Shown one piece after another: positions 2,423 to 20,941 of a DNA stretch of 35,751 bases. Under the pieces are notes generated by a model. That model saw nothing but the letters and a program-made list of their open reading frames with translations. It was not told where the DNA came from and ran no database searches. Both the position numbers and the translations under genes were made by a program. The stretch comes from a virus: IMG/VR virus record IMGVR_UViG_3300025120_000216, positions 1 through 35,751 of that record. The stretch is one strand, 5' to 3'. Position 1 is the stretch's first letter. Every line of letters starts with the position of its first letter.

Positions 2423-5400
2423 TGGGCAGGTCAACTTGCTTTGCACGTAAGAATCTTGCTATGTCAGAATCAGCACCACTTAGTGGTGTTCCTGGGTCTG
2501 ACCAAAGTTTACCTTGTCTTCTAACTATAATTATTTTCTGATTGACTCCTGGAGCATCGGTTAAGGTTAACATATTTCCGCTTACTGTAAATTCAGCTGG
2601 TAATGTAATATCACCTTCCGGTGAGTCTTGAGCAATCAACGGTGTTGCTATTGTACCATCAAGATTGTATGTTTCTCTCTGGTAATATTCAATATCGTTC
2701 TTTCTTAAACGCTTGCCTCCCACAAATACTTCAAAATCATTAACGCCAGTTGCTTCAAAATCTAGTTCATATACTGTGCTTGTTCCATCAGCTGTTAAAA
2801 TAGTTGTTAATGCTTTGTCGCTATATGGTAGATTTGTATTTGAACTCTGCGGATATACTTCAGATCCTTGATTAAGCAGTTTATTTGCACCTGTGCCTAA
2901 AGTTCCTCTTCTTATTTGCTGTAACTCGTTGCCTTCTTTAACAAAATATTCTATTCTTTCACCATTAATGAATATCACGCCAGGGTATTTTGCATCTCTA
3001 CTAGGCTCACTTAATGTACTAGCATCATTTACATATATTACGTTGTCTGTAATGTTTAAATCTTGACTTAGAATAATATCTTGTGTACCATCTAAACGCT
3101 TATAATGGTTTCTATTAAGCATATCTTTGAACTGTCTCCATCCAAACTTATCAACAGTTTTATCTCCAGCAAAGTGGATTACGTCAATTACATCATTATC
3201 TGCAATACTTGCAATAATTTTTACATAATTTTTGTTATCTGTTACATAATAATCAACACTTGGGTTTAAGAAATTGCCGTTTATGGATACCCAAACATAC
3301 TGTGCATCTAACGCAGGTGTATCTAATTTAATAAGTCCGTTAGCAAGGTGTCTACTGTTAAACCAAGATTCGCTACCAACTGTTAATACTGTTCTATTTA
3401 CAACTTCATAATTTAGTCTTTCAATTTTTTGCTTACTGTTATTACTAAATTGATAAACTTTTATTATTTCGTTTTCGGCAGGTGGATTTACCAATCTTAG
3501 TTGATTAGGTGTTTCAATCCAAGAATTTATACTACTATCTAAATATCCTAAACTGTATTCTCCATCTGATAAAACAAATACTTTTAGATCTTTACCATTA
3601 GTATCTAATTCGTTTTTTAATCTTATAATATTTGCATCTTGATTTTCTGCGTCAATACTACTATCATAAACATCTGAACCAATGAATGTAAAATCTTTAC
3701 TTTCTTGTAATTTTTGGTCGCCTAAGTATACATAAACTTCTGCAGAACCTACAGATGCAACTGGAATTTGCCATAGCTCTAATTTATATTCTAATACACC
3801 AGCTTGTGTTTTAAATGTTTTACTGTAACCAGGATTTAAAATTTTGTTGTTTACTTCTACAATAATATCAAATGCACTCGGTTCCGATGTAAACGGAGTA
3901 GTTGATAAATCGTAAACAGTAGATGTACCGTCAGCAGTAATAGTTTCTATATTTACTTCACTAAAGTTTTGTAGTACTGTACTATCTGCTAAAGTTAGTC
4001 CTTTAAATATTGCAAACCTTACTGGTGCATCTTCTGTAGGTGCTGAACCAAAGTTAAGCAAAGCATTTCCTGGATATTCGTAAGTTTTTGGTGCTTCAGA
4101 TAAATTACTTTCAACACGCTTGCCGTTTACAGTTGCATAAAATTCTAAATTAGGCTCATATGGTACACTTGTTAAGAATTGTGTAGTTGACCCATCACCA
4201 GTAAATTCGTCAATATCTAAAATTTGTGCACCGCTTACATCAATTGTAATCAAAGTAACACGTTCTCCTAAAGTAGGAGCAGTTGTAAATATAACTTCGT
4301 CTGTTGTTAGGTCTAATGTATAAGAACTTGCATCTTGTATAACATAACCAACTTTAACAAATACACTTGATTCTAAAACAGGTTTGTTACCTATTTTATA
4401 TCTTACAGTAGTTCCATCGCCAACATAATTTGTTGCATAGATTTGACTTGCACCACCTGTTGGTCTTTCGTATACTTGAATATCAAGTGTATCTAAAATT
4501 TGTCCTGGAACAAGTTCTTCAGGTCCTTTAGATGTAAGTTGTGTAACAAATCCGTCGCCGTCAATATTAATATCAGAAGCAGCAACACCTGTTGCTGTAG
4601 AATAATTAAGTGCTCCGCCTTGTATAACACTATCATAAGATATAGGATCAGGTAGGAAAGTTCCGTCACTTGTGCTTTTTCTAAATATTATTGTATCAGT
4701 ATTTGCAAACGGAACAGCTTCTTCGTCAAAAACAACTATGTTTGTAGGAAGGGCGCCGTCGTCAGTTCTAGACCAAGCTGTTTGCCCAGATCCTGTAATA
4801 CTTTGCATGATTGCATTTTTGTTTGTAACAACAGTACTGCCGTCCCATTTAGGATCATCAATTCTTACATTATTTTTGTATACATGGTATTGGACACCTG
4901 TTTCTAAGGGCTTAGTAAATGTAAACTGTGTGGTACTATCTTCTAATTTAAATATTTCATCTTCATAGGTGTTATCGTAAGTATCGTATCCTGACTCATA
5001 GAAGTTATCTGAATCATAACCTGATGTAGTATCAAATCCAAAACTCTTTACTTCTACGCCGCCGTAATCAACACCGTCCATTAACTGTGAAAGCTCTTTA
5101 CCTAATTGTCCTGTAGTAGGATCGTAAAATAAATTAATTCTATCTGCTGCATCAAGTAATTCAATGCTTTTCTTATAACTGATAATTACGGTAGCATCTT
5201 TAACTGGTTTAGTTACAAATGTAATTCTACCATAGTATCTATCATAACCTTTGGTAACATCTAGAACATTAGTAAAACTATATTCACTACGTAACGCTTC
5301 AGTTCCTGAAACTTTGACTTGAACATCTTTTCTACCTAATGACATAGGCCAATCTAGATTAAAATCAAATGCACTTCCAGATGCTATAAATGTTTTTTCA

Positions 5401-8400
5401 GCAGGTAAAGTCTTTATTTCAAAATTACTTTTTATTCTATCATATTTTACAATAGTTTTTGCACTTCTAATAGTATTGTTTTCTAAAATAACACTTGCTG
5501 TACACGGTGTACCTGTTTCTTCTTGGTTTACATCAAAACTTATAATAGGAGCACTTAAATATCCTGATCCTTTATTGGTAATTTCAATTTTTGTTACTTT
5601 ACCATTACCAATATACGCTTTTGCGGTTGCACCTGTTCCACCACCGCCGGAAAATTTAACTTGAGGAACACTTAAGAATCCTGAACCACTGTCTGCAATT
5701 ATAACTTTAGATATTTTATGAGTATGGTTATCTAACCAATGCTTATTAGGATAAGTTGTAATATTTGCATCAGTACCTATTAGTAAATCATTCTGTACTT
5801 TAATATATTCAGGAAGTATTTCTTGATAATCACTGTTATATTTAGGCGGTAAATCAAAATCTGTTACACTTGTTCTACTCTGTTCTATCTTTTCATAAGC
5901 ACTTAGATACTCTCTTACCTTTGTTTTAAAAGGTTTTACTTCTTCAACATATTTTTCATAGCTATCTAAGTTGTCATTATTAAATGTAATGTCTTCTCTC
6001 AACGTTCCTACGTTATGTTTTGCTTTTATAAAGCTAGTTTTAAACAACCAATCAACATAATTTTGTTCTGACAATACATATCTTACACTACTAAAGAATA
6101 ACTTATTATATTCAATTTTTAATTCATCTATTAATATATCATATTTTAATGCTTGAAGAATTTGTTTTGTTTCTTCAATAGGCTCATTGTCAAAGTATTG
6201 TGTATCAAAACTAATAGTATCATAACCTACAAAACTTTTAGAAGTATTATATAATTCTTCTTTAAACTGAATAGTTCCGTTTTGTCGACCAATTGTACTA
6301 TAATTTACAGTATAATCTGTAGTATCTTGATTGTCTATTTTTCTAAGTAATAGCCAGCCGCCGGAACCTATGTTTTTAATTTTTACAATATCGCCCATAC
6401 TGTCATCTAAAGCAGTAAGTTCATAAGAGCTATCTATAGCAAAATTAATTTCTGTAAGGTCACTATAACTAGTAGCATACCAATCTGCATAATTCCAATA
6501 TTTTGTTACATCAAATGCTGAACTAGTTACACGTCTCCAAATCTTCTCTACTGGAAGTCTTTCGTATATTCCCCACTTGCCTTGAATTGTTTCGTCAGCA
6601 TTAACAAGGACACTATAGTTCCTTACTTCTATTGTGGTTGCATCAGTATAATTAGTACCTTGCTCAACCATTGTTACATCAGTAATTTTACCAAGTGCAT
6701 TAATAGTAATATTAAACTTTGCTCCAGTACCTTGGCCATCAATAGTGTATGTAGGTGCAACACGATATCCTCTACCTGGATTATCTATTAATACTCTTGA
6801 AATTTTACCATCTTTAATTATTGGTCTTAGTTCTGCTCTTTCAGCTTTAGCAACACCTAATAAACTTAAATCTGCTAATGTATCAACACTTGTGTCATAT
6901 AATCTAGTAATTGTACTAGGCGCAGGATCTTTGGCTTGTAATTTAGTTAGGATCTTGTCGTCTATAATTAAATTTGTTAGTAGAACACTATTTGTTCTAT
7001 CAATAAACTGTTTAAATGCTTCAACTCTATTAATAAACCAACCTTGTCTTGGTTTAGATAAAGAACCATATTTTAATTTTTCGGGTAATGTTGAATCTGG
7101 AACAGGTCTGTTAAATTTATCATAACCTACTAAACTATCAAACCATTTGTTTTCAACATCAGTATTAGGAACACTTGTATCTAACCCTTCTGTTATAAGT
7201 TGATATTCATTATGTATATTTTGTGTTTGGTTATCTATAGTCCAATATTGTAAACTTATTGCTACATCATTGTCTTCAATTAATTTATCGCAATTATGTA
7301 AAACAAAACTATTATTGCTTAGTAAGTTAACAAATTTATATCCAGTAGAAGCAGGATCTTGAATATACTTTGCAACATTTTGTATACTTAAATTTCTACC
7401 TTCAACATCAGGTATTGTAACTTTATTTTTTACCCAGAAGTAATACTTGTTACTAAATGTTTGTTTTACACTATCGTATACTCTATTTTGTGCATATGAT
7501 GCATTACCGTATTTTGATTGTCCGGAATAACCTTGTGCAAAGCCGTCATTAGTATCTGCTAATGTATCCCAATCTGCAGGTAATATATTAGATTCTACCC
7601 ATTCGTAAATATCTACACTATTTCCTGGAAATACTCTGTTCCAATTATTCGTACTGTAAATTATACTATCTTGATACGGATTTACAAATTTACATGTTGT
7701 TAAATCCCACCATACTTGTCCAATTTGCCTTGTACCCCATGCATCAGTTGGATCAACATTTACACCCATTCCTCCTATAGAATAGTTTGCTGGGTCGTAT
7801 AAAGTTTTATATCTAATGTTTTCTTCGGCTGGTCCTGCAATTTTACCTTGTATAGGATCAATGTAATCTATATAAGTTAGTAATTTGTTAGTTTTTGTAT
7901 TGTATAAAATTGCTCTTTTAATTTTTGATACATCAACAGGATCTTTTGCAACACGATAATTGCTATAAATTTTTTCGTTAATATTTTTTCTATAATTTAT
8001 TAATCTACCTTGTGTATCAGTATTTGATAAAGCAGGTAGTCCTACATATAAATGATTTCGTCTTGATAATATATTTCTTCCAAAGTAATTTACATTTGTA
8101 TTATCAACATTTATTGTTTGTCCAAATAGTAGACCAGCATTAGAATTTTCATAAAGGTAAACTACACCACTATTTTCATTTACGTTTTGGAAACTTGTAA
8201 ATTGGTTGTCAAATGTAGTTGGTATCTGTTGTGTAGATGTATTATCTAAAACATAACCTGTACTAGGCCTAGTGTATGTGTCAAATGTAGTTTTAATAAT
8301 ACTATCGCCGTTACGAGCTGTAATAGCAAGTGTATTTCCATCAAACTGTAAAGCAGATCCAAACATTTCTGCTCTTTCGTTATTAGGACTGTTAAGAGTT

Positions 8401-11400
8401 TGTGTTAAATTAAATGTACCATTTACTTGCTTATAAATTAAAACTTTACCTTGATCTAACTTTTGATCATCATCGTATGGTGTACCTACTGCAATAGTCA
8501 TACCATCATTAGAAATACTTAATGCGTGGCCGAATCCAATAGTATTGCTAGGAGCTTCAATTTGTTGTGCTCTATAATAAAATCCTTTGTTTTCTCTATA
8601 TACAAAAATTAAATTAGGTTTATCATTTCCGTAAATTGCACTTGTAACAAGTACTTGTCCAGTTCCATTTACATCATAATTTTTACCAAAGGATATTAAA
8701 CTTCCTTGATCAGCTGTTGTGCTATCTAAAGAACTGTCACTTATAACACTTATACCTTGATCGTTTGGAATATATCCAACGTAATCAATTAAATCGTTTG
8801 TTGATGTCCAGTCAGTAATATTAAATGTACCAGGAGCAATATTAGTAAGTGCAGTATACAACCTGCCTTCGCCTGCATTGTCGCTTTCTAAGTAAACAAT
8901 GTCTCCTGTTGCATATGTATTTGCACTTGAAAATTCCCCTTGGAACTTTTTATTACGTGCAATTTCCCAATTATATAATATATTATTTTCTGTGCCGTGT
9001 TTTGTAAAATGTATGCGTCCTGGATTATCATTGTCACTGTGTATAAATGCCCTGTACAAATCATTATGTTTAGATATTTTAATTTTGCTACCTAATTTAT
9101 AATTGCCTGTAACTTCTGGTAATGTATAAGCATTAATAAATTTATAATCGCCTTGTGTATTACGTTCGTATACTGAATAATGTCCTTCATTTGTATAGCT
9201 ACTTGCTACTCCGTTAATAGATAAAGGAATATTAAACACTTGAGTCCAGTCATTATTTACACTAGATGGAATGTTTGAGTTTCTTGCAATACCTGATACT
9301 ACTCTTTCTTGGTATACATAGTATTCAACATAACGTAAACTACGTGATGTAACTCCTGTTATTGAAATATTACTTGAATCATCTGTTGTTAATACTAATA
9401 GTTTACCAATATCGTTTGGTGCATAACCTAAACTAGTAAATTGTATTTGTCCTACTGTTCTATCAACAGTGTATAAAGGATTTACACTTCCTGGAATTGC
9501 TAACATTCTTAAATTACTATTAGCACCAAAATCAAAACCTTCAGACCAAGTACCAGTTACATTTTTTAAAAACACTGTTGCAGTTAAACTGTCTCTTTCA
9601 TAGTGTGCAATTATACCCTCTGCACCTGTATTAAAGTCTTGTACTGTTTGTCCTACTAGAGGTTCTAAAGGATTTCCTCCATCAAATTGTGTTATATTAT
9701 ATGTTACATAACCGTCATATATGTCGGTAATTACATGCGACCTATTTGTTTCTGTAGTAGATAGATTTGTAGCTTCTATATTAATAAAACTATTATCGCT
9801 ATATCGAGGTAATTGGTTTACATATAATGAAACTGTATCTCCAGAGCTAACACTATCACTTAAAGTTTTAGAAACTCTTACATAGTAATTAGGACTTGTA
9901 ATAGGACTAGTTACACCATAAGCGCCTGGTGCGCCTTGATTTGTGAAAATTCCAATTTCACTACCGTATGTGTTTCTACTATTAATAACTGTTGTATCGT
10001 TATCTAAACTATTGTTGTAAACTAGGCCTGTATTTGCACTATCTGTAATTGTATCAATATAAACTAATCCACGTCCTTGATCGGAAGTTTGTGTACCAAC
10101 TGCTGGTGCAAGAGGATTTGTAATTGTATAATTTGGTGTTTCAATTACAAAATAACCATTCCAAGTACTTGAAACATCTATATTTTCGTTTGGTGCTACA
10201 AGCTCAAATTCGCCAATAAAATCACTATCTTGATTAAACAATGTGTCTGTAGGTTCAAAGGTTCCTGTTTGGTTGTTTACATAAACTGATACTTCGTTAC
10301 CATTACTTACAACTTGTGTTACAGTTGCTGAAGCAGTTGCAGTTGACACTACATTGCCTTCATCTGGTATTATACTAGCTGAAGAAATATATAAAATACT
10401 TTCAACTTTTCTTTGTATTGTATGTGTCGTATTTTTGATAAAGTCTTCGTCAATAATAGACCCATAATCTCCGCCAAAAGGTTGAGTAACAGTAAGTGTA
10501 GACTGATCTTGGTATGAATAAGATTTTGTATTCCAGTCTAGTTCTAATTGATCGTTTTCGCCTGCACCGTCAAATATTTCTTTTGGTGCTCTTACAAGTA
10601 TGTGATTAGTAGTAAACCCTCTAATAGGAAAGCCGCCTGTTAAAATTGTTTTTACAGGATTAGAATTATCTGTTGCATTAGATGTGTCTAATATAGATTT
10701 TGTTACTGAATAAAAACTATTAAATGTAACAGCAGCAGTTGCTGGTAAAATAGCAGTGGTTGCTCTCCATAGTAAATTATCTTTACGTACAATATCTGCT
10801 TTTGTATATGCAGATGCACTTGACCAATCTTGTTTATAAGTAGTTTTGTTTTCACTACTATTAGGACTTCCTACAATTAAATATTTTCCATCTTCTGAAA
10901 TATCTAATGATGCACCAAATCTTTCATCTTCATTTCCAAATTGAGTAGGTATTAATTCTTCAACAAGTTGTAAAGCAGTATTATCCGAGGGTCGCTTGTA
11001 AATGAAAACTTTACCATTACCATTATCAGGAGCTCCTACTACAAGTACACTATTTCTAATATCACTTGCTAATGCTATACCATAATTGTGATTATTTCCT
11101 GAATCATGATTTTCTAATTCAAGAAACTTATTCCATACTTGGCTGTTTTTCTTTACGCTCCAGTTTCCATCGCCAACATCAGATATCCAAATTAGATCAT
11201 CTTTGCTTACGCCTTTTTGTAAAATAGTATTTGCTTCACTAATATTAGCTACTTTTACACTAATAAATTCTGTAATATTACCTTTACATTTTTCTAGTTC
11301 TTCAGGTGGAGTACTTGTTAAGAATGTTAATTTATCATTTTCAATTGTTGCAATTTTATAAAAACCTTCAAAGTTTACTTTTTGATTTTCTACATTAACA

Positions 11401-17400: not shown

Positions 17401-17417
17401 TCTTTATCATATGCCAT
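2418..17417 (-). CDS. Giant baseplate/adhesin structural protein, 4,999 aa
   Basis: One uninterrupted frame fills 15 kb. It occupies the place that gene 7 has in T4 (just after gp6), but is nearly five times the length of T4 gp7, and I see no clear gp7 similarity. The N-terminus contains YYAWNPSIDFDKFTNFREYY (near residue 135), a style found in large marine-myovirus baseplate proteins. FG-GAP-like propeller blades occur near residues 2113, 2166, 2773, 2909, 2962, 3018 and 3109. Modules resembling CBM5/12 carbohydrate-binding domains lie near 1433, 1690, 2196 and 2825. GxGYxxxP repeats lie at ~3530-3585 and ~3898-3975. Repeats with DG(S/T)T starts lie at ~4334-4999. No membrane segment or signal peptide is seen. 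The start overlaps the gp6 stop by 1 nt (TAATG). The likely role is a baseplate-attached, host-surface-binding scaffold. Being a late virion protein is secure; its contacts and ligand are inferred. Confidence 0.8.
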   Translation of the reverse strand: MAYDKDQNEPTLPVNGEQKRSTSDLLPRFFRTQSNKKFLSSTVDQLTQPGQVEKINGYIGRKAAKAYNVNDNYLGDVTTNRQNYQLEPASVIKNNIGEIEFYNDYNDYVNQIKNFNSGNLNDSVLNSQEYYAWNPSIDFDKFTNFREYYWLPQGPQTITVFGQTKDVESTYTVTLADNDDNNAYIFSPDGKTQNPTLKLYRGVTYKFILNTPNLPITFRTRKTLDDQFLLNQDSTATGISSQGTEVGELTLTLTAETPDVIYYVADNDINASGMIKVANIEEASAIDIEAEILGKISYKSSTGFNLTNGMKVKFGGEVTPTSYAEGSYYIEGVGSQIKLISETDLDIPSSYTEDFDVEFDGNGFDRLPFSKAIGYPTNKDYILINRASSDGNLWSRYNRWFHRDVIIESASINNQPVEIDQSQRAIRPIIEFDAGLKLFNYGTKNKKAIDLIDTFTKDAFSIIEGSIGYNIDGVNVTKGMRVLFAADTDVLVKNKIFEVDVIKFSNNNQITLKEVSDTNPITNEVVLVTQGTVNKGKTYFYNGTAWVLAQDKTATNQAPRFDLYDANGKSFGNSTTYSSTTFIGNTIFTYKQGSGSNDSELGFPISYRSIDNVGDIVFNFNLLTGTSTYTQDNAVITKRSDIGFLRKYTDLTTYESFTGWKKAKEKSTQPVIQQIIYDNSTNDFEIDVYENSGLLTDLKIVIYKNNVLQNTSDYTLSINALNNTVVTFVKTPSINDNIIIKTQTMATKNANGYYEIASNLEKNPLNNDLTEFTLGEVNDHVATIIESLDNFTGIYPGQSNLRDFGDLVSKGKKILKHSAPLNLSLYHLLDKDANIIKSIRYARREYGKFKRLFLQVAENLGYEGPVKGHFDKIMAELNIDKTSKMPFYFSDMVPTGATKFTEHDVIDKDEKYFALNEVYSASTPSRKAVGVYLNGVQLVLNKDYTFTTEGFVNCTATKQPGDKLGIYEYENTNGSYVPPTPSKLGLYPVYEPSIYEDNTYQTPTKVIQGHDGSIVVAYDDFRDNLLLELEKRIFNNIKVTYDTSMLNIHDFVGGEARQTNVASANINKAMLQDFVQWSKLIDTDYTDNDTYNRDQSFTFNLYAQSDKSGNKLPGFWRGVYKHAYDTDRPHTHPWEMVGFFIKPSWWETQYGPAPYTSDNLNLWQDMEKGIVREPGKKYYAIKKYKRPNLTNHIPVNSNGKLLSPSDSNYVSQFDGTGLDSNWVFGDGSPVETAWRRSSEYAFSLITSWILNKPSEIFSKGFDRIRQVKNNAGNIVYSETQKQIRLQDIVFPNTVEDTAQVYTSGLINYISNYMASNVLSNYTQYKSNLKLISNQLGFKLGGFTEQNKFKLILDSRTPLNKGNVFVPEENYKVFLNKSVPIEILNYSGVIIEKATNGFIIKGYSEVSSSFKYLPAIKLANDPIINIGGVSENYIDWASGQTYVPGTNVQYQGTYYRVKSQFQSGTDFDNTNLAKLPSLPLVGGRDAVIKKTFNNTQVSELPYGTLLRTIQDVVDFLLGYGEFLKLKGFSFEAYNGEQKTVLDFVHSAKEFLFWTTQNWGEGSVITLSPGATDLQFETQYATVDDIYDNFYGYSLFKADGKKLEKELASIGRESIKNFSVAPKNTADGIFNINIGLIQKEHVVLLDNKTVFGDIIYDLEPGYRQERIKIAGYRTTDWDGSLNIPGFIYDDVKITEWTQYTDYQIGSVVKYKEFYYSALTKIAGTETFVDTSWVRLDEKPNNELISNFDYKTNQFNDFYDLDSDNFDVEQQRLAQHLIGYQKRDYLENIINDNVSQYKFYQGFILDKGTKNALTKLFDALASDDKDSLEFYEEWAIKNGQYGAAEGFDEVEYKLDESKFRLKPQPIELTNSIPNDSKDLVYRILPSEVYVAPDNYDHKPFITKNVKKTFTRDSGFVNTNDVKKLVTFKDDIINLTYKDIDNGDYIWIGNVNLTWDVVKHIDTDLVMDSITTEPGGFGITCKTIPNFAVGDIIGLGGIVTETITAGADSSVNVENQKVNFEGFYKIATIENDKLTFLTSTPPEELEKCKGNITEFISVKVANISEANTILQKGVSKDDLIWISDVGDGNWSVKKNSQVWNKFLELENHDSGNNHNYGIALASDIRNSVLVVGAPDNGNGKVFIYKRPSDNTALQLVEELIPTQFGNEDERFGASLDISEDGKYLIVGSPNSSENKTTYKQDWSSASAYTKADIVRKDNLLWRATTAILPATAAVTFNSFYSVTKSILDTSNATDNSNPVKTILTGGFPIRGFTTNHILVRAPKEIFDGAGENDQLELDWNTKSYSYQDQSTLTVTQPFGGDYGSIIDEDFIKNTTHTIQRKVESILYISSASIIPDEGNVVSTATASATVTQVVSNGNEVSVYVNNQTGTFEPTDTLFNQDSDFIGEFELVAPNENIDVSSTWNGYFVIETPNYTITNPLAPAVGTQTSDQGRGLVYIDTITDSANTGLVYNNSLDNDTTVINSRNTYGSEIGIFTNQGAPGAYGVTSPITSPNYYVRVSKTLSDSVSSGDTVSLYVNQLPRYSDNSFINIEATNLSTTETNRSHVITDIYDGYVTYNITQFDGGNPLEPLVGQTVQDFNTGAEGIIAHYERDSLTATVFLKNVTGTWSEGFDFGANSNLRMLAIPGSVNPLYTVDRTVGQIQFTSLGYAPNDIGKLLVLTTDDSSNISITGVTSRSLRYVEYYVYQERVVSGIARNSNIPSSVNNDWTQVFNIPLSINGVASSYTNEGHYSVYERNTQGDYKFINAYTLPEVTGNYKLGSKIKISKHNDLYRAFIHSDNDNPGRIHFTKHGTENNILYNWEIARNKKFQGEFSSANTYATGDIVYLESDNAGEGRLYTALTNIAPGTFNITDWTSTNDLIDYVGYIPNDQGISVISDSSLDSTTADQGSLISFGKNYDVNGTGQVLVTSAIYGNDKPNLIFVYRENKGFYYRAQQIEAPSNTIGFGHALSISNDGMTIAVGTPYDDDQKLDQGKVLIYKQVNGTFNLTQTLNSPNNERAEMFGSALQFDGNTLAITARNGDSIIKTTFDTYTRPSTGYVLDNTSTQQIPTTFDNQFTSFQNVNENSGVVYLYENSNAGLLFGQTINVDNTNVNYFGRNILSRRNHLYVGLPALSNTDTQGRLINYRKNINEKIYSNYRVAKDPVDVSKIKRAILYNTKTNKLLTYIDYIDPIQGKIAGPAEENIRYKTLYDPANYSIGGMGVNVDPTDAWGTRQIGQVWWDLTTCKFVNPYQDSIIYSTNNWNRVFPGNSVDIYEWVESNILPADWDTLADTNDGFAQGYSGQSKYGNASYAQNRVYDSVKQTFSNKYYFWVKNKVTIPDVEGRNLSIQNVAKYIQDPASTGYKFVNLLSNNSFVLHNCDKLIEDNDVAISLQYWTIDNQTQNIHNEYQLITEGLDTSVPNTDVENKWFDSLVGYDKFNRPVPDSTLPEKLKYGSLSKPRQGWFINRVEAFKQFIDRTNSVLLTNLIIDDKILTKLQAKDPAPSTITRLYDTSVDTLADLSLLGVAKAERAELRPIIKDGKISRVLIDNPGRGYRVAPTYTIDGQGTGAKFNITINALGKITDVTMVEQGTNYTDATTIEVRNYSVLVNADETIQGKWGIYERLPVEKIWRRVTSSAFDVTKYWNYADWYATSYSDLTEINFAIDSSYELTALDDSMGDIVKIKNIGSGGWLLLRKIDNQDTTDYTVNYSTIGRQNGTIQFKEELYNTSKSFVGYDTISFDTQYFDNEPIEETKQILQALKYDILIDELKIEYNKLFFSSVRYVLSEQNYVDWLFKTSFIKAKHNVGTLREDITFNNDNLDSYEKYVEEVKPFKTKVREYLSAYEKIEQSRTSVTDFDLPPKYNSDYQEILPEYIKVQNDLLIGTDANITTYPNKHWLDNHTHKISKVIIADSGSGFLSVPQVKFSGGGGTGATAKAYIGNGKVTKIEITNKGSGYLSAPIISFDVNQEETGTPCTASVILENNTIRSAKTIVKYDRIKSNFEIKTLPAEKTFIASGSAFDFNLDWPMSLGRKDVQVKVSGTEALRSEYSFTNVLDVTKGYDRYYGRITFVTKPVKDATVIISYKKSIELLDAADRINLFYDPTTGQLGKELSQLMDGVDYGGVEVKSFGFDTTSGYDSDNFYESGYDTYDNTYEDEIFKLEDSTTQFTFTKPLETGVQYHVYKNNVRIDDPKWDGSTVVTNKNAIMQSITGSGQTAWSRTDDGALPTNIVVFDEEAVPFANTDTIIFRKSTSDGTFLPDPISYDSVIQGGALNYSTATGVAASDINIDGDGFVTQLTSKGPEELVPGQILDTLDIQVYERPTGGASQIYATNYVGDGTTVRYKIGNKPVLESSVFVKVGYVIQDASSYTLDLTTDEVIFTTAPTLGERVTLITIDVSGAQILDIDEFTGDGSTTQFLTSVPYEPNLEFYATVNGKRVESNLSEAPKTYEYPGNALLNFGSAPTEDAPVRFAIFKGLTLADSTVLQNFSEVNIETITADGTSTVYDLSTTPFTSEPSAFDIIVEVNNKILNPGYSKTFKTQAGVLEYKLELWQIPVASVGSAEVYVYLGDQKLQESKDFTFIGSDVYDSSIDAENQDANIIRLKNELDTNGKDLKVFVLSDGEYSLGYLDSSINSWIETPNQLRLVNPPAENEIIKVYQFSNNSKQKIERLNYEVVNRTVLTVGSESWFNSRHLANGLIKLDTPALDAQYVWVSINGNFLNPSVDYYVTDNKNYVKIIASIADNDVIDVIHFAGDKTVDKFGWRQFKDMLNRNHYKRLDGTQDIILSQDLNITDNVIYVNDASTLSEPSRDAKYPGVIFINGERIEYFVKEGNELQQIRRGTLGTGANKLLNQGSEVYPQSSNTNLPYSDKALTTILTADGTSTVYELDFEATGVNDFEVFVGGKRLRKNDIEYYQRETYNLDGTIATPLIAQDSPEGDITLPAEFTVSGNMLTLTDAPGVNQKIIIVRRQGKLWSDPGTPLSGADSDIARFLRAKQVDLPR

Positions 17418-20400
17418 TAATATCCATAGCCTCCGCTACTGCTACCGCTACTAGAACTGCTACTAGAACTGCTACTAGAACTGCTACTAGAACTGCTACT
17501 AGCTGTTGTACTACTAGAACTTTGTATTCCAGTATTTGATGTAGTAGATGATGTTAATACATTACCCTGTGCTTTAAGTCTTGATGCTGTAATTGCATCT
17601 ACAATTTCTATATCATCAACTGTTGCACCACTAATGAATATTTCATCTGATTCTGATTTAATTTCAAGTAATGAACCAAATGACTGAGCAGATTGATCTG
17701 GTACTAAAACAAACATAACTAAATCTGGTGCAAGTTGTTGCATTACATATGCACTCAATTCAGTAAAATAAAATGTTTCGCCAAATTCCCAATTTTCTAA
17801 AGCAAAAAATTCGTTAATCGAACTAATTACTCTTGACTTTAAATCATTGTCGTTAATTGTAAGATCTGCATTTTTAACAATTTTAAAAGTTGCTTGTAAA
17901 TCATCCTTTGCTTTGTTTCCAAATAATACTTTATATTTTACAGGGTGATAAATTATTTCATCTGTTAAACTTTTTATTTTGTTTAATTCTGTACCATAAC
18001 TTTGGTATAACTGATCTTGACTTGGTGGTAAAGGTTTAGCAGAAATAGTTCCTTCTAAATATTGTCTATATGTATTATCATATGAACGTGTTAAAAGATA
18101 TGTGTCAATAATATTAGAAACACTAGGATCTATTCTTGAACTTGCGTCTGCAGCATGAACATATAAGAATTTTAATTTATCTCTACCTAATCTTGCTCTA
18201 AAGTTATTAGTAAGTGTTAAATTTCCAGTTAGTTTATCTATTTCATAAAATATATTTTCATCTACAAAATAAAAAACTTGTTTGTCTTCATAAATTGTTG
18301 TTGTTCCTAAAGATGCTAAATTTTGTAAAGTTATAATAGGTTGTGTTCTTGCTGTATTATCAACATAATTATAATCTTCACTTCCGTCGTTAGTAGATTC
18401 TTTTTGTAAGAAAACAAATTTATTTAAAGGTGTAACTTTAGGTGCAACTATATCTTCAAATATTTGAGGATTATCTACAACACCGTCTTCGTCTTCGTCA
18501 AAGAAACTTACTTGTATTTTTTTACTATTAATATAACCATCTGTATCTCTAAACTCTTCAACAATTTCCCAATCAAAATCAATTGTAAATGGAGATGTTA
18601 TATCAGGTTGTGTATTAATATTTAAAATACTTATTTTATCTTTAACAGTTTTTCCTGTTAAATTGTTATAAATTTTATCACCTGAATCATAATAGAATTT
18701 AATTTCTTTATCACTCTCAAATACGTACCTACTTGCTCTATATGTAATTGTGTAAGTTTCGCCATCAGTTTCAAAAAGTAATAACCAACTTGCATCTAAC
18801 TGTTGATTAGTACTATCGCCAGTTTTACCTATACTGAAAGCACCTCCAATATTTAAATCGTTTTCTGTAATTAAACGCCATTGTCTAAGATCTCTATCAA
18901 ATCTTAATCCAAATGTTTTATATGCAAATGCTTGATCTACAATTTGTGTTTTTACATCATTTTCTAATGCAGTTGCTATGCGAGGCATAATTTCAACTAG
19001 CTTGGCTCCTGTTGGAATAGGGTCAGCTAAAATAACTCCGCCGCTTCCGTCTGCATTTGTAACTGTTCCATCGCCTGTTACACTTACAACTTTAGTCCAT
19101 TTGTAAGATATAGCATTTGGATGATCTGGTAATCCAGCCATTAATCCGTGTTCGTTATTTGCCATAAAGTGTTGACCAGTTGGTGGAACAAATTTTATTA
19201 ATGTTCCCGGAACTATTAATTTTAATAGACTTCCTGTAAATGATCCTATTTGACTTCTAACACCTGTAGTATTTTTTAAATATCCTGTATTTAAATTTGT
19301 ATCATCAGACAGTGATGTCCATGTATTATTCAAATCTTCTGTAAGTAGTTTAGGATATTCGCTCATGTAAAAGTTTTTTACTTTGCGGTCTGTTAAAATA
19401 GGCTCGATTGTATTTTCAATCGCTCCTTCAATATCTGTTTGAGTAGCAAACGTAAATGTATTTTGTAATTCAAGTTTTTCTTTTGTAATAATACCGTCAA
19501 TACCAAACAAGTTTGTTTTACTATATTTTCCTGTAGCATCAGTTAGATCAAAATATCTTGATATACCACTTGCAATCCTGTTAATAGATTTTGCTTTTAC
19601 AATTTCTTGGTTAACTGTAAGCGGACCAATTTGATAATCTTCAGCAGTAACCATTCTATTTTGAGTATAATAGTTTGCTGGTGCCGAATTTTTTATGCTA
19701 CCATTTGTTTCGCTTGTTGTTGCATTATCAACAGTGTATCCTAATTCAAAAACAAGACTTAAAGTTTCACTTCTTCCTTTACGTGAAACATAAGGAATTT
19801 TAATACTAACACCACGCATATCTGCTGGGTCAATAATTTGTCTTTGATTTTTACTAGTTCTATAATATACTCTAAAATTACCTTTTGGTAGGTTTCCAAA
19901 AACGCCATCACTAAAAATTAAACTTATTCTATCATTAATTCTTGTTAATACAGAATAAATGTTTCTTACTTTTTTACTTAAACTATTATAAATTACATTA
20001 TTGCCTTCAACAGCATCAACCTTAGACCATTGTTCGTCTTCTAGTCCAAAGCCGTCTAATTTATAAAGCCATACATCGTTGTTGTTTATATTAACAGCAT
20101 CAATAGCAACTACTTGATTAGTGCTAGGTGTCGATATATTAAATGTACCTTGATCTAAAGTACCTTGCCTAAAGTGACAAAAGAAACCATTATTAGTACT
20201 TGCTGGACCACGGCCGTCATCTCTATACAAGAATGCAAAGTTATTACCTGGGAACGGTGATTCTTCTTCAATGGCTCCGTTGGTTACATCTGTACTTACT
20301 ATTTCAAATCTTGTACTTGTACCATTAACTACTTTAGAAAAACCAAATACAGGAACTTCTTTATTTGTACTGTTAAATCTATACTGTTCAGTAGGAATGC

Positions 20401-20941
20401 CAGCTACAGTTTCTTTTTTAACAGGACGTCCGTATGTGCCGTTAATAGGTAACGATGCATTAAGTACTTTTGTAAATTGTTCGTTCCAATCAGGGTTACT
20501 TGGATCATTCCATATAATTGTTTGGTTTTCTAAATTTATATTATTAGCATCAAACAATTCTTCTGTAGTCTGTACACTAGTAATTTTAAGTAATCCGTTT
20601 GCAGGTTGATTTCTCTTTGGGTTATATGAAAGCAAACGTGCTAGACGTAATACGCTTTCTCTACGTTCTGCTAATTCTAGAAAATTTTCTCTAGCATTAA
20701 GATCGATTCTGTATGATATATTTTGTCCTAAAAATGCTATCAAATCTATTAATGCAAGGTACTCTGAGCTTTCAATATAATCATTGAAATCCTCAGGGTA
20801 ATTTTCCCTAATATAATTAATCATTACACGGCGAAGATTGTCAAAGTCGTAACTTTGGAAATCCGCATTTCTATAACTTTGATAGATGCGTTTCCAATCT
20901 TCTGCAACTAGTAATCTATTTTGTCTATCTGTTGATGACAT
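17417..20941 (-). CDS. 6: Baseplate wedge protein gp6 (Baseplate_J-like), extended, with poly-Ser C-terminus
   Basis: An 1174-aa protein with an ATG start and an AGGA ribosome site. Residues ~10-110 carry the gp6 N-terminal signature, including YIRENYPEDFNDYIESSEYL, IAFLGQNISYRIDLNARENF and RLLSYNPKR. The region at ~1020-1130 (INEFFALENWEFGETFYFTE, MQQLAPDLVMFVLVP) matches the conserved C-terminal part of the family. In T4, gp6 forms the ring that joins the baseplate wedges. T4 gp6 is ~660 aa, so this homologue carries several hundred extra residues, mostly in the middle. The last ~40 residues are almost all Ser/Thr/Gly and end in GGYGY. It follows gp25, with which it interacts in T4, and is preceded by its own late promoter core. 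Confidence 0.9.
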   Translation of the reverse strand: MSSTDRQNRLLVAEDWKRIYQSYRNADFQSYDFDNLRRVMINYIRENYPEDFNDYIESSEYLALIDLIAFLGQNISYRIDLNARENFLELAERRESVLRLARLLSYNPKRNQPANGLLKITSVQTTEELFDANNINLENQTIIWNDPSNPDWNEQFTKVLNASLPINGTYGRPVKKETVAGIPTEQYRFNSTNKEVPVFGFSKVVNGTSTRFEIVSTDVTNGAIEEESPFPGNNFAFLYRDDGRGPASTNNGFFCHFRQGTLDQGTFNISTPSTNQVVAIDAVNINNNDVWLYKLDGFGLEDEQWSKVDAVEGNNVIYNSLSKKVRNIYSVLTRINDRISLIFSDGVFGNLPKGNFRVYYRTSKNQRQIIDPADMRGVSIKIPYVSRKGRSETLSLVFELGYTVDNATTSETNGSIKNSAPANYYTQNRMVTAEDYQIGPLTVNQEIVKAKSINRIASGISRYFDLTDATGKYSKTNLFGIDGIITKEKLELQNTFTFATQTDIEGAIENTIEPILTDRKVKNFYMSEYPKLLTEDLNNTWTSLSDDTNLNTGYLKNTTGVRSQIGSFTGSLLKLIVPGTLIKFVPPTGQHFMANNEHGLMAGLPDHPNAISYKWTKVVSVTGDGTVTNADGSGGVILADPIPTGAKLVEIMPRIATALENDVKTQIVDQAFAYKTFGLRFDRDLRQWRLITENDLNIGGAFSIGKTGDSTNQQLDASWLLLFETDGETYTITYRASRYVFESDKEIKFYYDSGDKIYNNLTGKTVKDKISILNINTQPDITSPFTIDFDWEIVEEFRDTDGYINSKKIQVSFFDEDEDGVVDNPQIFEDIVAPKVTPLNKFVFLQKESTNDGSEDYNYVDNTARTQPIITLQNLASLGTTTIYEDKQVFYFVDENIFYEIDKLTGNLTLTNNFRARLGRDKLKFLYVHAADASSRIDPSVSNIIDTYLLTRSYDNTYRQYLEGTISAKPLPPSQDQLYQSYGTELNKIKSLTDEIIYHPVKYKVLFGNKAKDDLQATFKIVKNADLTINDNDLKSRVISSINEFFALENWEFGETFYFTELSAYVMQQLAPDLVMFVLVPDQSAQSFGSLLEIKSESDEIFISGATVDDIEIVDAITASRLKAQGNVLTSSTTSNTGIQSSSSTTASSSSSSSSSSSSSSSSSSGSSSGGYGY
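17447..17502 (-). repeat. 6: 12-bp tandem repeat encoding poly-serine at the gp6 C-terminus
   Basis: Four perfect plus-strand copies of GCTACTAGAACT lie at 17447-17494, followed by a partial fifth copy. Read on the minus strand each unit gives four serine codons. Because the unit is a multiple of three, gain or loss of copies would change tail length without shifting frame. Strand slippage is the likely origin. Confidence 0.95.

Follow-up and report, generated by a model that had tools for sequence, protein, structure and literature searches.

A giant virion protein of an uncultured, jumbo-type phage (P0001, 4,999 amino acids) contains a seven-bladed FG-GAP-type propeller in which further domains are nested, and we consider it probable that this arrangement, a propeller set in a hairpin of the protein that hosts it, a CBM5/12-like module in a loop of blade 2 and a long arm in that module, is a display platform for cell-surface binding. 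The window, that is, the whole stretch of DNA analysed here, is a metagenomic virus record of 35,751 bases, within which gene context was read; residue N of P0001 ends at window position 17418-3N on the minus strand. The blades, their nesting, the empty sites and the stepwise series among relatives were all computed in this analysis.

The seven FG-GAP-type blades span residues 2104-3145. A strict FG...VG-type pattern has five matches over the 4,999 residues of the protein (at 2112, 2167, 2910, 2962 and 3019), every one inside the propeller region, and shuffling of that region yielded a mean of 0.52 matches (P=0.0015). Pfam FG-GAP_2 (PF14312) matches the window at 1.1e-9 and was found in 28 of the 29 relatives of alignment A5, and a sequence profile compared with PDB sequences reached integrin alpha-6 at 1.7e-4. 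The FG-GAP motif is present in the blades, those of blades 3 and 7 being degenerate.

By sequence match (E=0, 1111 bits), P0001 is a member of phrog_10938, annotated 'virion structural protein'. Its gene adjoins a gp6-like baseplate wedge gene (window 17417-20941); the other upstream neighbours match a wedge subunit of the gp25 type, a hub/lysozyme protein and one more wedge subunit. The same order of baseplate genes, with phrog_10938 after the gp6-like wedge gene, is seen in PA5oct, Atu_ph07, Phosso and 121Q. The record of the PA5oct homologue, gp355, is annotated ESI-MS/MS, and the phrog_10938 family is therefore present in virions; it is supported that a virion protein of the baseplate gene cluster carries the propeller as a decoration. 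Relative to the phrog_10938 proteins of Rak2-like, PA5oct-like and Atu_ph07-like jumbo phages, P0001 is alike along residues 1-1868 and 3150-3850 and in gene order, whereas its propeller has no equivalent in those of six named jumbo phages. The position after the gp6-like gene is that of gp7 in T4; in a check of homology to T4 gp7, this protein was absent from the PDB matches of the host-region profiles A1 and A2, and Pfam Gp7_5th matched one of 29 arms, weakly, at 0.022. The gp6-like wedge protein itself ends in a serine-rich C-terminal tail that includes 18 consecutive serines, encoded by a 12-base tandem repeat, GCTACTAGAACT (window 17420-17515, minus strand).

Comparison of relatives locates the site of insertion. 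In propeller-less relatives the slot reads as a hairpin (e.g., YVDG..PWKVYQKYGVWFEYR...VD in L154), whereas in propeller-bearing relatives the first hairpin strand (IW[IV]D...W.V) precedes blade 1 and the second (W...R....VD) follows blade 7. The hairpin strands flank the propeller and the hairpin is empty in propeller-less relatives, and the propeller is therefore inserted at the hairpin turn. The six named jumbo phages (121Q, Vibrio 2.275, PA5oct, SCTP-2, Atu_ph07 and Phosso) conserve the flanks and lack the propeller, and the slot of the first three comprises about 220-320 residues. Other sequences occupy it elsewhere. In Atu_ph07, which forms the L005/L006 pair with Phosso, the slot holds about 1,500 residues of GSGY..[AP]P repeats, as it does in Phosso, and these repeats resemble residues 3537-3598 and 3906-3970 of the window's protein. 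In gene 140 of the Salicola phage SCTP-2 (L007), a LamG/concanavalin-type lectin-like stretch, recognised by eye, replaces the propeller at residues of about 2110-2330. The Sinorhizobium phage Phosso additionally encodes, far from its phrog_10938 gene, a separate 3,692-residue protein (L010:8399-19477) with 24 FG-GAP_2 matches and laminin-G domains; FG-GAP propellers therefore occur elsewhere in related jumbo phages.

The propeller is interrupted within a blade (Table 1). In the AlphaFold2 model, strands a and b of blade 2 lie at residues 2170-2184 (b at 2179-2184) and strands c and d at 2745-2765 (c at 2745-2752), with about 560 residues between strands b and c. Since these strands flank the insert, and a short loop joins the two halves of blade 2 in two relatives (L059 and L075), the interruption lies inside blade 2. 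The original prediction had two blades separated from the other five by some 600 residues inserted between blades 2 and 3; the large interruption is real, but that location is ruled out because strands c and d of blade 2 come after the insert. In L064, L084, L049, L056 and others, the same loop carries one module of about 60-80 residues. Of 29 slot sequences, 18 match Pfam CBM_5_12, the best at 2.7e-13; the score is 30.0 bits in L084 and, at another site, 18.9 bits in the window, against a cut-off of 26.2. The profile of the blade-2 module matched in the PDB a chitinase domain, 2rts, chitin deacetylases and the tail fibre or spike chains 9rkv and 8fqc. An HMM of the module, trained on armless relatives, aligns to the window in two separate pieces, its positions 1-47 falling on residues 2178-2224 (3e-11) and its positions 50-83 on residues 2712-2746 (E=0.055), and the arm of 487 residues that parts them is therefore nested inside the module. 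Complementary module halves were detected in 45 of the 61 arm-bearing rows, and it is from the family that the split proposed for the window is read, its second half being weak when taken singly.

The arm itself is an internal duplication, and it is missing from 11 relatives of the first search, which show a gap of about 480-490 residues. Its profile has no PDB sequence match up to E=5, comparison with Pfam gave no family worth naming, tblastn gave no match in phage records, and no arm modules were found elsewhere in P0001 or the window. An integrin-like A domain, or any other Pfam or PDB family, was rejected as its identity, having no sequence match. The arm, whose sequence matches nothing in Pfam or PDB, represents a new family.

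Additional insertions were observed in several relatives. A further insert of ~200 residues lies inside the first arm repeat in L030 (13310-15409) and L042 (12854-14956), and one of 130 residues lies near that repeat in L055; Pfam gave nothing useful for these extra inserts. The pattern 'HGLVDGDQV...YYVK' is common to the arm inserts of L030 and L042 and a 90-residue insert between blades 1 and 2 of L049, and this insert is probably a mobile phage module. Large unrelated extra sequence, hundreds of residues long, lies between blade 1 or 2 and blade 5 or 6 in L119, L170, L175 and L200; it has no match to the arm model and perhaps represents other arms in the same propeller. In L052 (6587-13570) the reading frame for the giant protein ends within the arm while the contig continues, which could be a frame error or a real break.

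Table 1. Features of P0001 and its slot, with residues of the protein and positions in the window.
Feature	Residues	Window positions	Strand	Basis
Gene of the 4,999-residue virion protein P0001		2418..17417	-	phrog_10938 E=0; adjoins gp6-like wedge gene
Host hairpin strand 'IWIS..GNWSVKKN' before propeller	2073-2091	11145..11201	-	empty-site comparison with propeller-less relatives; model strands
Strand like d strand of other blades, probable ring-closing strand	2092-2104	11106..11144	-	strand at model residues 37-43; consensus QxIxN...FGxS
Blade 1	2111-2158	10944..11087	-	strict motif; model
Blade 2, strands a and b	2166-2187	10857..10922	-	strict motif; model
CBM5/12-like module in blade 2, first half	2188-2224	10746..10856	-	family HMM positions 1-47, 3e-11
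Inserted arm (487 residues)	2225-2711	9285..10745	-	gap in armless relatives; arm HMM
Arm repeat A	2268-2390	10248..10616	-	hhalign of arm halves, E=5.7e-14, probability 98%
Arm repeat B	2506-2627	9537..9902	-	hhalign of arm halves, E=5.7e-14
CBM5/12-like module in blade 2, second half	2712-2735	9213..9284	-	family HMM positions 50-83, E=0.055
Blade 2, strands c and d	2743-2767	9117..9191	-	model; contiguous with a and b in L059, L075
Blade 3	2772-2821	8955..9104	-	model
Second CBM5/12-like module, between blades 3 and 4	2822-2880	8778..8954	-	model; HMM; Pfam CBM_5_12 5.1e-7 at same place in L084
Blade 4	2905-2956	8550..8705	-	strict motif; model
Blade 5	2960-3010	8388..8540	-	strict motif; model; HMM
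Blade 6	3017-3104	8106..8369	-	strict motif; model
Blade 7, strands a to c	3112-3145	7983..8084	-	model
Return strand of host hairpin (W...R....VD)	3148-3165	7923..7976	-	model; empty-site comparison

We propose that a seven-bladed FG-GAP (integrin-like) propeller was inserted into the beta-hairpin turn of a gp7-position virion protein in the baseplate of a jumbo-type myophage, that a CBM5/12-like module then entered the loop between the second and third strands of blade 2, and that the internally duplicated arm was inserted within this module. The propeller would serve as a rigid platform, both ends of which leave through the host hairpin as a two-stranded stalk, so that it would stand off the baseplate, and its loops would point one whole and one split CBM-like module, together with the arm, at the cell surface. 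The modules and the arm may attach to glycans of the host or to some other surface molecule and thereby aid docking of the baseplate before contraction, as secondary receptor binding. Surface exposure and binding are what we infer here, and a role of the protein as a phage adhesin binding the host surface from the baseplate is plausible. Propeller-less relatives are viable phages, and the propeller is therefore not essential to the baseplate.

The main rival to this proposal, possible if unlikely, is a purely structural role, in which the propeller and its inserts are a decoration that packs between wedges or braces the baseplate of a very large virion without binding the host. Its location in a protein of the wedge cluster accords with such a role, propellers often act as scaffolds, and the slot takes other folds in relatives, such as the LamG-like stretch read from the SCTP-2 sequence. 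However, presence in some relatives and absence from others, faster divergence than the core and the CBM-like modules better fit an exposed binding part. With respect to conservation, the values are 50% for the blades, 53% for the arm and 66% for the core in L016, and 43, 34 and 55%, respectively, in L028; the slot is less conserved than the core, as expected for exposed binding parts. The host segment that precedes the slot varies as much as the arm, and divergence therefore gives weak support to display and does not single out the arm as the receptor binder.

The display platform that we favor presupposes a single propeller. An AlphaFold2 model of residues 2060-3165 of P0001, built with a 53-sequence alignment, contains strand sets for seven blades (mean pLDDT 88.5, pTM 0.75), and that of the armless relative L084 has pLDDT 84.8 and pTM 0.87; among the possible counts of four-stranded blades, seven is best supported by these models. 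In Foldseek searches of the PDB, integrin alpha chains (aX, aM, a5 and a6) lead the matches of the L084 model (5es4, E=1.2e-10), and target-normalised TM scores are 0.58 with alpha5 and 0.62 with eIF3i, a WD40 protein of seven blades. Integrins are also the top matches of the window model, with 470-510 columns aligned. The rmsd values of the Foldseek matches are high, at 9-13 A. Ring closure in P0001 was judged from model confidence, strand order and Foldseek, from which we infer one closed ring in the window's own protein. The last outer strand of the ring is probably supplied by the N-terminal strand of the model, and the likeness of the strand at 2096-2102, before blade 1, to the fourth strand of other blades suggests that it closes blade 7. 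The bare propeller of L075 had no tblastn match in phage records.

That blades 1-2 and blades 3-7 are instead unrelated partial domains, with no single ring, is highly improbable. About 560 residues separate the two blade sets, the pTM of the whole-slot model is below that of the armless one, and the aligned columns cover only part of the window model; yet all seven blade units are contiguous in armless and bare relatives, where the fold is predicted confidently as one domain and matches integrins over its full length, and the two halves of blade 2 flank the insert on either side. A fold break into two partial domains was rejected on the contiguous blades of L059 and L075, the L084 model and its integrin matches. 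The seven FG-GAP-type units of the original prediction lie where it had placed them, as borne out by the strict motif matches, Pfam FG-GAP_2 and the modelled strand sets, although its span of 8078-11090 ends too early and truncates blade 7, which extends to about 7983. Its seven-bladed propeller with a large inserted arm was supported by structure prediction, Foldseek and the contiguous blades of relatives, and the structure prediction showed neither two separate partial domains nor the absence of a propeller.

Relatives were gathered with alignments led by the window, a bare-propeller protein and Atu_ph07, and they retain the successive states of the slot, the predicted insertion being present in some and absent from others. 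The 142 distinct relatives comprise 28 without a propeller, 33 with a propeller and no detected blade-2 module, 20 with propeller and module, and 61 with propeller, split module and arm, counts that are not frequencies because the relatives were ranked by similarity. Trees were made outside the slot, using residues 1000-1860 alone, and on them a single change accounts for the propeller; the deepest branches with a propeller have no blade-2 module, which comes next, and the arm comes last. These trees suggest that the propeller was gained first, then the module and then the arm; in a few later branches the module has apparently disappeared or become too divergent to detect. The arm amounts to two changes on the large tree (one gain, and one loss in a clade of ten) and to one change on a smaller tree with a better model, without useful support. 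A first tree, limited to the 80 best matches, had placed the arm at the base of the propeller clade, with two later losses; this was overturned by wider sampling, a reversal that urges caution on similarity-ranked samples. An assembly artefact or contig chimera, conceivable for a metagenomic record, can practically be dismissed, given that the reading frame is open across 4,999 codons and that the arm-bearing gene recurs in independent contigs (L002 at 98% and L003 at 84% over the region) and in 61 distinct rows.

Domain insertion is a main route by which viral surface proteins grow, and to our knowledge its intermediate steps rarely survive. Here one gene family retains every stage, from the hairpin alone, through the propeller set in it, the module in a blade and the arm in that module, to further inserts in the arm. 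Frames and folds are apparently intact at each stage, and the order and rules of nested insertion are therefore directly testable. We speculate, as a rather doubtful extension, that the blade-2 loop is a standing dock through which a marine-type jumbo phage lineage adds arms for receptor binding through one insertion after another (a module into the blade, an arm into the module and more modules into the arm), as an independently evolved viral counterpart of the integrin I-domain arrangement. The baseplate propeller loop of large phages is also marked as a putative site at which new binding parts are gained, and the arm defines a family without known structure.

With regard to known systems, the phage propeller matches the same Pfam family, above threshold, as the bacterial and viral FG-GAP_2 propellers (PF14312). 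BFVD contains many such propellers, including the phage proteins A0A6J5S3H5, A0A2L0UZX4 of Atu_ph07 and H6WG31 of S-TIM5; these matches cover the propeller part only, and none was found with the split module and arm. Likeness to the CBM5/12 chitin-binding modules through Pfam CBM_5_12 is shared by slot sequences, whereas in the window the arm cuts the blade-2 module in two, and carbohydrate binding is putative. Propeller lectins have been described in the fibres of contractile injection systems (PMC12923769). In the open literature that was searched, we found no description of a nested propeller arrangement or of a phage FG-GAP propeller with inserts.

The closest parallel is offered by the integrins, with features of the propeller and the Cage motif as defined previously (PMC3192720; PMC8023676). 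The propeller has no calcium loop of the DxDxDG type joining strands 1 and 2 in blades 5-7, the sole D.[DN].[DN]G of P0001 lying outside it, at residue 4282. A loose Cage pattern with properly placed glycine and proline occurs only in blades 1, 5 and 7, rather than in every blade; in blade 2, the FG and P are present and the glycine lies beyond the insert. Judged by these features, the protein falls outside the integrins, and the predicted integrin-type character stands in blade count and fold but not in calcium loops or Cage motifs. Moreover, unlike integrin, the phage propeller has no partner beta subunit, and its insert shows no detected relation to the A domain. Nevertheless, the two architectures are alike in having seven FG-GAP blades and a large extra domain in the region of blades 2 and 3, and integrin alpha chains give the best fold matches. 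Integrin A-domains are placed between blades II and III (PMC12383024), whereas the phage insert lies inside blade 2, where it separates strand b from strand c, and is nested in a CBM-like module.
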